Assembly (NCBI GenBank): GCA_963971405.1
Contig: OZ020487.1
Span: forward strand, 21,809,371-21,873,370
Reading direction: 5' to 3'
DNA: 64,000 nt
Origin: Psococerastis gibbosa
Lineage: Eukaryota; Arthropoda; Insecta; Psocodea; Psocidae
The notes under the pieces: model-generated
Seen by the model: only the letters and a program-made list of their open reading frames with translations
Told to the model about the DNA's origin: nothing
Database searches by the model: none
Program-made: the position numbers and the translations under genes
Part shown: positions 951 through 5,873 of the stretch, one piece after another
Position numbering within the stretch: the first letter of the stretch is position 1
Layout of the letters: every line of letters starts with the position of its first letter

Positions 951-2978
951 TAGTCCGGTCAATTTAGACATTCGAAGTTACATAAAGTCACAACAAGCTG
1001 AATTTCTGTGAAGTTGTTCAAAACATAATTACAAACAATGTCTAGAAGTTCCCCATCATTCCCCTGTAAGGAAAAAATTTAATTCAAGGTCAAAGGTCAA
1101 AAAATGAGTTTTTCGCGATTTTCAGCAAAACGGTAAGTTTTATCATAAAAGTACCTCAGACCAAAATTGTAGATCATAAAATTATCTATAAAAAATGTAT
1201 TCATACTTTTTTTCTTACGAGCCACCGTTTCTGAGATATAACGATTCTAAAAGTTATAAAAGTTGTTATCGTCATAATATGCACACGTTTCCACGCCACC
1301 TATGAGGCAGTGTACTTAGCGCGTTTTTGTTAACGTGGTTTCCCCAGTAGGCCTACTCCACGGGTCAGTTGTGATCCTGTTTAATGTAAAACTATTGCAA
1401 AATAACGGAAATTTTCAAAGATTGGGAAAGATAAAAGCGATGTAAATGAAAAAAAAGTGTTGAAGTTTATTCATCTTATTCGTAAGTTTTAAATTCTTGT
1501 TCTTCTTCTTGATCTTCTTCTTGTTCTTCTTCTCCTGCTTCTTCTTCATCTTCATTTTGGATGCAAGTAAATTGCGTCAATAGCGATGTATCCCATGATA
1601 CTTCGTCGGAGTCAAACGAATCTTCCATTGTTTGTGATTCAATATTAGAGCACGACCGGCCTTGACAATTTGTGCATGCCAAAGAACAAGACAGTCCGAC
1701 TTTTTTGCAACCACATTTAGCACTGCATCCCTTTTTGCAGTTGCAAAAAATAATGTTTAGCAGTTTATTCGGCGCAGGTGGAAGTAAAGTTTGAACTGGC
1801 CCTAATATATTGTTGACCAACTTCCAACCCCAGTCTGTAGGGTCTAGCTGATAACCAAGCCACACTTGAACTTGGTAATATACTCGAAAAAGATGTTGGT
1901 GAGCAGCAACTGAAGTTGGAGGAAGACAAGCTAATTGAACTTGTTTTTTATTTTTAGTATTTTTAACGAAACATGCATATCGATGTTTATCTAAACAGGT
2001 AGTTTTTTTAGGAACTCCGTACATAGAAAGAAGAAAGCGGATGCCGTTGGTAATAACTTCTTGTTGAGTTGAATCACTTTTTTTAAAAACTTCAGCACAT
2101 TGAATTAAATCTTGTTTTTCAAACATTTTGAAAACTGATGTTTTACCCTTCCTGTAAAATGCAGATGTCGTATCACAGCCAGTTATTGCGTGTAAAAATA
2201 GTACATGATCGTTACACTTTACAAAAGTAAATAAACTTTTTGATGAATATATATATGATTGATGCTGAGCTTTTCCTGGTTTTAAGAAAAAAATAGTTTT
2301 TTCAGTTGGCGTTCGAGCAGTGAGTAATACAAGTAAGTCAACATCTTCACCAACAACAATAGTTGTATTTGTCAAATTGAATTGCTCTATTGCTGTTTCA
2401 ATAATCAATACATCAGCATCATTATTAGCTTGTTTTACCAATATATTTTCAGCCGTAAACTTTTCTTTCAACATTGAAATGAACCGAGACTTGTTGTGGG
2501 TATTAGTAAGAAATTTCTGTTGACTGGTTGGGGCTGTCATAAGTTCATCAAATAAAATATTTAAACATTAAATATATATATATATATATAATTTTACAAC
2601 TCTAGATGTATATACGTGGCGTACTCATGTACTCATGCATATTATGACGATAACAACTTTTATAACTTTTAGAATCGTTATATCTCAGAAACGGTGGCTC
2701 GTAAGAAAAAAAGTATGAATACATTTTTTATAGATAATTTTATGATCTACAATTTTTGTCTGAGGTACTTTTATGATAAAACTTACCGTTTTGCTGAAAA
2801 TCGCGAAAAACTCATTTTTTGACCTTTGACCTTGAATTAAATTTTTTCCTTATAGGGGAATGATGGGGAACTTTCAGACATTGTTTATAATTATGTTTTG
2901 AACAACTTCACAAAAATTCAGCTTGTTGGGACTTTATGTAACTTCACTCTCATTTTTTGGTCTAAATTGACCGGACTA
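951..2978 (-). mobile_element. DNA transposon-like element with ~335 bp terminal inverted repeats and one ORF
   Basis: The left arm (951 to about 1283) begins TAGTCCGGTCAATTTAGAC. The right arm (about 2636-2978) is its inverse and ends GTCTAAATTGACCGGACTA. Arms match closely except for a ~14 bp block present only on the right. Both borders are flanked by ACA (948-950 and 2979-2981), possibly a 3-bp target duplication, though so short a match could be chance. The single ORF (1476-2540, minus) fills the inner part. No DDE transposase is visible, so either the ORF product is an unusual mobilising protein or the copy is internally deleted. It lies in fibrillin intron 5 in the sense orientation of that gene. 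Confidence 0.8.
1476..2540 (-). CDS. 354-aa transposon protein with PIN/FEN-like acidic motifs and C-terminal CXC cysteine cluster
   Basis: An intact ORF from ATG at 2540 to the stop at 1476. Residues 40-43 (NDAD), 64-68 (GEDVD) followed by a hydrophobic strand, and 121-123 (GCD, in AITGCDTTSAF) look like the spaced acidic residues of PIN/FEN-type metal-dependent nucleases. Residues 266-298 hold a dense CxC...CxC cluster resembling a tesmin/TSO1 CXC zinc-binding motif. The last ~45 residues are acidic, rich in Glu. From memory, proteins of this kind recur in arthropod and other animal genomes as uncharacterised multi-copy genes. The start falls in mid-domain for the longer relatives I recall, so the N-terminal part may be missing or lie in an unseen exon. 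The mobile context (inside inverted repeats) is seen directly; a nuclease role is inference. Confidence 0.72.
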   Translation of the reverse strand: MTAPTSQQKFLTNTHNKSRFISMLKEKFTAENILVKQANNDADVLIIETAIEQFNLTNTTIVVGEDVDLLVLLTARTPTEKTIFFLKPGKAQHQSYIYSSKSLFTFVKCNDHVLFLHAITGCDTTSAFYRKGKTSVFKMFEKQDLIQCAEVFKKSDSTQQEVITNGIRFLLSMYGVPKKTTCLDKHRYACFVKNTKNKKQVQLACLPPTSVAAHQHLFRVYYQVQVWLGYQLDPTDWGWKLVNNILGPVQTLLPPAPNKLLNIIFCNCKKGCSAKCGCKKVGLSCSLACTNCQGRSCSNIESQTMEDSFDSDEVSWDTSLLTQFTCIQNEDEEEAGEEEQEEDQEEEQEFKTYE

Positions 2979-3229: not shown

Positions 3230-3740
3230 CTACAATGGAATGAATAATTAATTAGTTATTGCACATTTATGACTCGATCAACTAGGAAAGCGTGTGACAT
3301 GCCTTTACATCTACTCGAAAATTGGAATCATGGTGTATTTTAGCGGCTAGTCTGGCGTGAAAAAATTCAGAAATTAAATGTGGATATTTCATGACGTATT
3401 ATACGTCAAAATTTGATCAGTTGCATAATCATGAAACTGCAGGAAATGTATACAAATGGGAAATTATGATGGACAATGGCATGTTTCCCTGCCAACGCTG
3501 TGCACACTACCAAGTTTGCCGCAGTTTGAAACACGCTCTGTTGGCCGTTGGCATAGTCGTTGACATAGATTTTGACAAAACGTTTCATGGAGTAAGCTTT
3601 CAGACAAACCATTGCCCTTCAGCCCGGATTCTTCATGATCCTTCAAAAATGCCACAAGATAGGAAGAGGTGCAGGTTCTTGTAGCACACCTTTTCCTTTG
3701 TGAAAAGTTAGGTTACATTAAAATATTTTTTATAACTCAC
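3230..3740 (-). other. Fibrillin intron 4
   Basis: A 511-bp intron from donor GTGAGT (3740) to acceptor TAG (3230). A 97-codon plus-strand frame lies inside (3391-3684), but it shows no recognisable domain and is antisense to the intron. I see no repeat copy here. Confidence 0.75.
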
Positions 3741-3929
3741 AATCTGCGCAAAAGGATCCAGTGTATCCAGGTTTGCAAATGCATTTTCCATTGTTACATG
3801 TTCCTCCATTGATACAGGACGGTCTACAATACTGCTGATTGGAACTATTGGGCGAAACCGCACTGTTGTCCGGTCGCGGATACCGGGAATACTGATAAGT
3901 GCTATTTGAATCAGTCACTCCTTCTCTAC
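3741..3929 (-). CDS. Fibrillin exon 4: Ser/Asn/Tyr-rich linker plus EGF-like domain 2
   Basis: A 189-bp phase 1-1 exon, acceptor CTTAG, donor GTGAGT. Residues 111-172 begin with a ~30-residue polar segment (contains TDSNSTYQYSRYPRPDN and SPNSS) with two N-glycosylation sequons, NST and NSS. The EGF module follows: YCRPSCINGGTC, then NNGKCICKPGYTGSFC. In vertebrate fibrillins EGF1 and EGF2 are joined by a much shorter link, so the polar insert is a lineage feature of this protein. Confidence 0.93.
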
Positions 3930-5058
3930 CTAAGTAAAGATAAAAAATCAAGGGTAATCGGTGTTTTGCTGTGCTACAAAATAAAATAAGGGGCAGATTT
4001 CAAAATATTTTGTTGACGAGGAATGGTCGTGTGTTTTGACGAAATTGTCGTTCCATTGCCGCAAAAAATATGAAGGTGGCCAGATGAAAAATTCAAAAGA
4101 ATTTAAGTTTTAAGTAAAAAAAAAACAGTATATTTTCTCGCCTAATTAACAACCATTCTAGAAAATCAGTTTAATGGGTGGCACCATGACCACTACTGTC
4201 ATGTCTAGTTGGGAGTTAGCTTTTCTTCTACTACTTTTGTATTTTTGTAACAAAATAGAATAGGCCTACACGATTTTAGTTTAAATTAGAATTGTAATTT
4301 TGATTAACGCTATAATGCACTTCATTGGGTGTTTAAAAATTAATGATTTTTAAGCAGACGAGAAAATCTAAATTTATTTGATAGGCTTGTATTTTTTATG
4401 AATTTTTCATGTGACCACTATCAAAAAATTGTGACTGTGGAACGTGAAATTAATTATTTTCGTCAAATATCCATTGCTATTTCTTATTATTTTTTTTAAT
4501 GTTATGTTCTCTCCCTTAATACAAGTTTTTATATCTTATTTTCGGGCTTTGTTAAACATTTAGCCACGAACTGAACGAGGTTAACTATTATATTTATATA
4601 CATCAAACTTGCAATAATTGTTGATAAATTCATCAGGGATAGTGAATATAGAGACATCACTCGGGAATTTCATGCTTGAGAATGGAGCTGGAATTAGTTT
4701 ATTGAACAGATCATAAAAATATGTTCGAAGCTGCCTTATTCCTTGTTGCAGTGTGTGAAAGCAGGGCTATTGTCTCTTTTTAACATGTATAATAGCAGTT
4801 TCTTGCAATCCTCAACATAACTTTACTTTCATTGTAGGTAATATTAAAACTAATCACTCCTCTCAACTACAATCTGTTATATAATATCCTTAGGCTGGGG
4901 TTTTGTCGATGGGTGGATTAATGAAATAAAAATGAAATGAAAGCTCCTTAACCTCAGATGCATGGTCGCGTCGACCCTAGTTAGAACAGCATTGTTTAAT
5001 TTCTATCAAAAATAGTAATAATTACTATAGATCCTGTTACGTAATAATCGAAATTTAC
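3930..5058 (-). other. Fibrillin intron 3
   Basis: A 1.13-kb intron between donor GTAAAT (5058) and acceptor TAG (3930). AT-rich. I see no ORF, no clear repeat copy and no conserved motif within it. Confidence 0.75.
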
Positions 5059-5160
5059 CTGGCTCTGCTTGCCGGCAGAACAAGGCTAGGCTGCCGCCAT
5101 CACACTGGCAAATGTTGGGACGAATACAGCGCCCTCCTCCGCACGATCGGGCGCACACAG
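5059..5160 (-). CDS. Fibrillin exon 3: EGF-like domain 1
   Basis: A 102-bp phase 1-1 exon, acceptor TATCTAG, donor GTAAAT. With the split codon before it, the string is PVCARSCGGGRCIRPNICQC, then DGGSLALFC. This aligns by eye with the first EGF-like module of vertebrate fibrillins, whose Cys pattern and RPNxCxC motif it shares. Exons 2 and 3 together make the FUN/EGF1 region used in family members for N-terminal assembly. Confidence 0.93.
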
Positions 5161-5873
5161 CTAGATAAACAATAAAATAATATTTAGGGCGGTTCCCATC
5201 ATAGCTTGAAAAGTATCGGTAAGGAATACTGCGCGGCACCGCCATGCTTGGAAGGTGGCGGGGCCGTTTCGACTTTCTCCTATTAATCTTCAGGCGATGG
5301 TTATAATTTTAAGTGAAGACTGCTAGAATAAAATCGTGAAATGTTGGCGATTTAATGATCTGGTCTAATTAAGTAGCCCACATCATGAAATGCGACCGTT
5401 TCATGAAATTCTCGAGCAATTTGAGAAGTGAGCAAATCTACGGTATGGCCACGACATATACAGTATATTATATATGAGAGACTAATCGTTGATATCATAG
5501 GATTATATAACATGATGTTATGGAAATTATAAACCTTTTTAAATTATTGATTTATTATATTGTTTTACTATAGTATTGTAAATTGTATTCTATTCTAGTT
5601 TATATCATGTTACATCATTTATCATGAATCATGGAGATTATCTTACCACGACTTAAAAGATGAACGTCATAGTGATACTGTTAGACTGTTGGAATAGAAA
5701 CGTGTGTGTTCCAATACAATGAATAAATTCATAAGATCGAATTCACATATTCAGTGTTTCGTTCGATTCAATTTCTAATAACTATTGCAATTTCAGTAAT
5801 ATAAAATATAAAGTGGTACAACAAGTTTCCATGGCTAAAATAGTTTAAAAAAATAAGATGTGAAATTACTTAC
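5161..5873 (-). other. Fibrillin intron between exons 2 and 3, with a MITE fragment near its 3' end
   Basis: A 713-bp intron, donor GTAAGT (5873), acceptor TAG (5161). A fragment of a foldback MITE family (5185-5262) lies only ~24 bases upstream of the acceptor. The rest is AT-rich with no recognisable signal. Confidence 0.75.
5185..5262. mobile_element. MITE fragment, GGTCCCAYYATnGCTTGAAAAGT family
   Basis: It carries GGTTCCCATCATAGCTTGAA, then AAAGTATCGGTAAGGAATA and a GCGCGGCACCGCCATGC centre. Related copies are at 44466-44626, 52473-52564 and 54333-54439; in those the end motif appears at both ends in inverse orientation. This copy keeps one end and part of the centre. Confidence 0.6.

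Follow-up and report, generated by a model that had tools for sequence, protein, structure and literature searches.

A 2-kb inverted-repeat element with a nuclease-like reading frame, probably a non-autonomous derivative of an Academ-like transposon

Does a transposable element whose only gene looks like a nuclease move by its own protein, or is it a remnant moved by another? The question is raised by a 2,028-bp element at positions 951-2978 of the window, the 64,000-nucleotide stretch of DNA analysed here. The earlier note described a bounded element with repeats of about 335 bp and one intact open reading frame (ORF), and considered that a non-DDE nuclease might mobilise it. The coordinates, the repeats and the ORF were all confirmed. 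The left terminal inverted repeat (TIR), with the tip TAGTCCGGTCAATTTAGAC (951-1283, plus strand), and the right one, ending in ...GACCGGACTA (2636-2978, minus strand), were delimited by inverted-repeat alignment and by genome copies. These TIRs of about 335 bp have TAGTCCGG ends and show 98% complementarity across 310 nt ungapped, or 94.5% in an alignment of 343 columns with two gaps close to the tip (E 3.8e-153). They are flanked by an unstranded ACA target-site duplication (TSD), seen in the flank sequence at 948-950 and 2979-2981. The sole sizeable gene is a 354-codon ORF on the minus strand (1476-2540) with a nine-cysteine CXC-like cluster (1650-1745, minus strand; C-x-C-x3-C-x3-C-x-C-x6-C-x3-C-x2-C-x4-C).

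Directly left of the element, at 521-915, lies a fold-back element with arms of 148 nt (83%) and 51 nt (90%) and TTAA at both ends, perhaps a TTAA-targeting MITE; the left flank of another 2-kb copy (L025) resembles it. To the right, EGF-like segments are encoded on the minus strand at 3733-3951, above the Pfam cut-off (EGF_2, EGF), and at 5009-5245, below it. They are perhaps exons of a host gene, and together with an assembly of 409 Mb in 68 contigs they indicate that the genome is eukaryotic.

A search of these 409 Mb found at least 16 near-full-length copies at 95-100% identity, the window included; the count is a lower bound from the best 40 of 491 candidates scored. Fifteen copies span positions 1-2028 of the element and one spans 21-2028. 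The earlier note had named multiple copies with the same borders as support, and these are present: 18 distinct loci were looked at, and an exact 3-bp TSD was found in 14 of the 16 assessable copies, those with both flanks visible. The two exceptions are L015 and L030, the latter adjoining an AT microsatellite. The end sequence with up to three mismatches occurs 634 times in the genome, against 36 times for a reversed control. Outside the genome, no relatives were found among the viral contigs, prokaryote contigs and phage records searched, and none of 77 prokaryote and viral loci codes for a relative at E 0.1 by tblastn. No account of the family was met in the available portions of the literature searched.

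A one-mismatch form of the end, TAGTCCGGTCAATTTAGTC, recurs among the listed matches of the end search. Four loci with such ends (L130-L133) were rejected as copies of the window element, which they match only over the terminal ~30 bp. They contain inverted-repeat units of about 200 bp, with both ends visible in three of the four, and in three of the four these units are embedded in a larger repeat of about 950 bp.

A protein search of the genome with the window ORF led to two uninterrupted frames of 1,487 and 1,585 aa, each within its own TIRs. The first element (L040, 1757-7726) has TIRs of 527 bp at 92.6%, and the second (L039, 2227-8030; 5,804 bp, TSD TAG) has TIRs of 449 bp at 98.9%. Both families have TAGTCC ends, with TAGTCCAGTCA at the ends of the TIRs. 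The 1,487-aa family, with TAGTCCAGTCAAAT ends, is represented by 19 left and 19 right ends; the paired ends span 5,970 bp in 17 cases, 5,968 bp in one and 8,163 bp in another. An unbroken 1,487-aa frame is present in 17 copies of this 5,970-bp family, and a 3-bp TSD was found in all ten copies checked of the 19, plus AAC in L040. The family looks recently active. Seven copies of the 1,585-aa family were found, four of them with the full frame.

The window ORF aligns to the C-terminal ends of both long proteins, namely to residues 1148-1451 of the first (40% identity) and 1203-1503 of the second (43% identity), and is a C-terminal remnant of a transposon protein of about 1,500 aa. The possibility, raised in the earlier note, that the ORF is an unrelated insertion captured between the repeats is rejected, as the same protein end lies within the TIRs of several lineages. 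The likeness of the window TIRs to those of the 5.97- and 5.80-kb families ends after the first ~14 bp; a single 25-bp internal TIR match is shared with the 5.80-kb family.

The middle region of both long proteins contains the motifs FDNAD, TFDQP, GGFH and AERxGxW in this order; FDNAD, TFDQP and AERxGxW are conserved in both. This region would be the core of a DDE transposase; no DDE domain was recognised in the long proteins by Pfam or PDB sequences, nor in the middle region of the L040 protein by PHROGs. The earlier note had named longer family members with a standard transposase as evidence against its proposal; the long protein was found, and its middle region would supply the DDE part. 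After the middle region both proteins have DGGxLLH, FDGY, EDAD, GEDxDLL and GCDTT, and then a nine-cysteine cluster with a spacing identical to that of the window ORF. The order of the five acidic motifs is FEN-like when compared with that of FEN1 and XPG enzymes, and the parent may act as a nuclease. The window ORF contains NDAD (for EDAD), GEDVDLL and GCDTT together with the cysteine cluster. It does not contain DGGxLLH and FDGY, with which the acidic motifs of the parental nuclease-like region begin, and the full motif set of the long proteins, on which membership in the PIN/FEN group was judged, is incomplete in it. Because these two motifs are lost, the window protein very probably has no nuclease activity, even if its parent is active.

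The earlier note called the ORF PIN/FEN-like with a tesmin-type cluster, which agrees with the motif order and the cysteine spacing but not with the Pfam domains. The sole Pfam match of the window ORF up to E 1 is VESA1_N at E 0.72, nothing convincing, and neither a PIN/FEN nor a tesmin domain was found in the whole ORF or in the CXC segment alone. The tesmin/TSO1 CXC (TCR) model PF03638 matches neither the window ORF, nor the CXC segment, nor the long proteins; genome-wide it matches only two places, in one other frame of 731 aa. Neither the window ORF nor the long proteins, whole or in parts, gave a convincing match to Pfam, PHROGs or PDB sequences; the best were phrog_9505 (E 0.019) and the Pfam family Viral_env_E26 (E 0.037). 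The XPG_I model (PF00867) matches eight places in the genome, none within window-type elements or their long relatives, and hhalign against three host XPG/EXO1 exon sequences found by PF00867 left the motif region unaligned. The structure predicted for the window ORF from its single sequence was of too low quality for use (mean pLDDT 36.5). The profile results leave the nuclease and CXC folds neither confirmed nor excluded, and the names "PIN/FEN-like" and "tesmin-type" are weak labels for motif order and cysteine spacing only.

Elements of intermediate structure were also found. Five of them (L047-L051) have TIRs that are 73-78% identical to the window TIRs. Numbered on the L040 protein, the retained coding sequence begins at residue 901 in L047 (3,663 bp, TSD CTG), at 986 in L048 and at 1003 in L049 and L050; L051 has C-terminal pieces only. 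L047-L050 combine the TIR type of the window element with more parental coding sequence than it contains. A 3-bp TSD was not seen at L048 and L050; in L049 and in L051, one of the two tips is decayed or was not found. The junction in the window element is a 7-bp microhomology, ATATTTT (2554-2560, minus strand): on one side lies parental 5' sequence like that of L139, on the other coding sequence like that of L047, and the seven bases are common to both. A short residue of parental coding sequence (2541-2553, minus strand) precedes the start codon of the ORF, which lies downstream of the junction and corresponds to the internal methionine in LFDELM. L138 belongs to the same subfamily as the window element, with coding sequence from residue 1118 onward; its junction differs from that of the window element, and therefore at least two deletions from the same parent took place. 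The earlier suggestion of a derivative with a captured or kept accessory protein holds as to the derivative, and what was kept is the C-terminal part of the one large protein that the parent encoded. No full-length element with TAGTCCGG ends was found in three genome searches, one of which scored the best 40 of 141 candidates and the other two every first-look candidate.

The 5' region of some derivatives contains a repeat of about 210 bp, at 763-974 of L139 (C1:6179930-6181900). It has at least 35 further places in the genome at 89-97%, with the best 40 of 141 candidates scored.

The ORF is intact in three of the 18 short copies, the window included. The changes of these copies from their majority sequence, in which the ORF is still open, comprise 68 nonsynonymous, 15 synonymous and 4 stop changes, where neutral expectation is 71%, 23.5% and 5.5%, respectively; the short copies change neutrally. 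Neutral change alone does not prove that the ORF is useless, as most transposon copies are neutral after insertion. Stronger evidence comes from movement without the ORF. A single 1.69-kb ORF-deleted derivative is present at two loci with different flanks (L134 and L135, 98.25% identical), with the TSD TCA at both; tblastn finds the ORF there only from about residue 267 on. No ORF match was obtained by tblastn in L136 (TSD GTA) and L137 (TSD AAA). Since the ORF-deleted derivative is found at two loci with TSDs, the ORF is not needed in cis.

These observations bear on the proposal that the element is self-sufficient, its 354-aa nuclease-like protein mobilising it without a DDE transposase. The absence of any other sizeable gene, the intact frame in the window and in two further copies, and the lack of a Pfam transposase match in the ORF would agree with it. 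However, the ORF is 5'-truncated and lacks two acidic motifs common to both long proteins, its copies change neutrally, and a derivative without it has moved; moreover, a TSD with a constant length of 3 bp typically points to DDE integration. We consider self-sufficiency extremely unlikely, and the nuclease-driven mobilisation put forward in the earlier note is not upheld.

CXC-bearing fragments occur in other contexts as well. L168 (557-2623; C1:19026500-19029800) is a short TIR element with 603-bp TIRs at 92.5%, the ends TAGTCCATTGAAAT and TAGTCAATTGAAAT, and CCC on both flanks. It encodes a 162-aa C-terminal CXC frame, and five such places, L168 included, were found at 48-51% identity. L167 (C1:31931400-31934700) has a C-terminal CXC fragment with a 159-aa frame, one of ten such places at 49% identity; its neighbours, judged by eye, are an ORF resembling a PIF/Harbinger transposase on one side and an ORF resembling a Tc1-type helix-turn-helix on the other.

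Could the truncated nuclease/CXC ORF have been kept for a function, either as a trans-acting regulator or as an accessory needed in cis? A regulator would have a precedent in the KP derivative of the P element. The ORF is open in the majority sequence of 18 copies, and a second lineage, L168, retains only the C-terminal CXC piece inside its own TIRs; four more places of this type were listed at 48-51% identity. HAL1 families with ORF1 only, as mentioned in the available part of PMC3627910, offer another parallel. In addition, dN/dS between the window ORF and older relatives is 0.067 (84 codons, L048) and 0.089 (66 codons, L047), that is, 0.07-0.09 over the first 66-85 codons; two other pieces gave 0.33 (41 codons, L051) and 0.36 (61 codons, L048 beyond a frame break). 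The low values against older relatives indicate that the ancestors were under constraint, and autonomous ancestors followed by a recent deletion account for them. The neutral spectrum of the short copies also argues against a kept function, and deletion alone yields 3'-anchored remnants. Furthermore, by tblastn L049 and L050 have middle coding pieces only, while the derivatives described above have the ORF only from residue ~267 (L134, L135) or not at all (L136, L137). A function of the retained ORF is therefore unlikely. As a specific variant, the window and L168 lineages could have kept the CXC tail because the truncated protein modulates transposition in trans, by still binding to transposon DNA or to the full-length protein; the evidence leans against this regulator too, and we regard it as a shade less likely still.

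In the best explanation, to which we assign a probability of about 0.83, an internal deletion in a TIR DNA transposon gave rise to the window element, which is non-autonomous and most likely relies on a transposase supplied in trans. This reading follows from the 5'-truncated remnant, the neutral copies and the ORF-deleted derivative at two loci. The features of a derivative were all observed, namely multiple copies with the same borders and TSDs, longer relatives with the deleted sequence, and movement without an intact ORF. The parent would encode one large protein, in which N-terminal Cys/His clusters are followed by a long middle region, taken as the DDE core, then by a region resembling FEN/XPG nucleases and finally by CXC-like cysteines. 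Deletion at short microhomologies would have joined the parental 5' region to coding sequence near codon 1,137 (numbered on the 1,481-residue protein from the first Met in L040), so that both TIRs stayed intact around the 3'-terminal quarter of the gene. The shortened element would then have multiplied with the help of a transposase acting in trans and recognising TAGTCC...GGACTA ends: most likely, the full-length protein would bind the ends, cut, and join the element at breaks staggered by 3 bp. As the source of this transposase, the 5.97-kb family would be the obvious candidate, though it has only ~14 terminal bases in common with the window element; it is equally possible that the partner is absent from the assembly.

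The parent resembles an AcademX transposon, and we treat this as a likeness short of proof. The Academ superfamily and the AcademX lineage are reportedly due to Kapitonov and Jurka in 2010 and Kojima in 2020. TSDs of 3 bp also occur outside Academ, and the parent could instead come from Zator or EnSpm/CACTA, superfamilies with such TSDs, or from an unnamed superfamily. The domain libraries name neither long protein, and Academ was compared by description only. On the other side, the element ends are not CACTA. According to the accessible part of Kojima 2023 (PMC10045372), TSDs are 3 or 4 bp in AcademX and 9 or 10 bp in AcademH and are tied to the encoded nuclease/helicase; the 3-bp TSDs of the window family and of the long families fall within the AcademX range and, with the nuclease-like motifs, match this account. 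Both long families would fit the AcademX description, and a parent outside Academ is possible but appears the weaker choice. Academ is listed among the superfamilies with a DDD/E transposase in a passage of PMC9587614, and a RecQ helicase in Academ is mentioned in an excerpt of PMC3627910. The parent would use DDE chemistry and could be filed under Academ, and the window family probably represents young non-autonomous derivatives of such an Academ-like transposon.

The analysis removes one candidate nuclease-driven transposon and brings to notice two long families in the same genome. Their protein combines three parts that Pfam does not recognise, namely a probable transposase core, a nuclease-like region and a CXC-like cluster, and the families would lend themselves to testing what role a nuclease plays when joined to a transposase.

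Internal-deletion derivatives of DNA transposons are exemplified by Ds of Ac and KP of P. The window element is similar to them in its intact ends, microhomology deletion, partial ORF and presumed movement in trans; in contrast to them, it keeps a C-terminal remnant, and no sign of a regulatory role was seen. Its cysteine spacing is similar to the pattern of Tesmin/TSO1-like CXC (PF03638), and the acidic-motif order to that of XPG_I (PF00867), whereas no match to either Pfam model was found in the element or in its long relatives. With AcademX, the window family and the long relatives share the 3-bp TSD and the long relatives the nuclease-like motifs, while the window element differs by the absence of the presumed transposase region and of two nuclease motifs. 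The long families (5,804 and 5,970 bp) are close in length to curated bivalve Academ elements, with a mean of 5,565 bp in the available text of PMC10294476. Like HAL1 (half-L1) and the Fanzor1-only CMe-1A, as outlined in part of PMC3627910, the window element is non-autonomous and carries one parental protein, here one piece of it; those families are said there to keep their coding capacity for long, whereas the short copies described here change neutrally.
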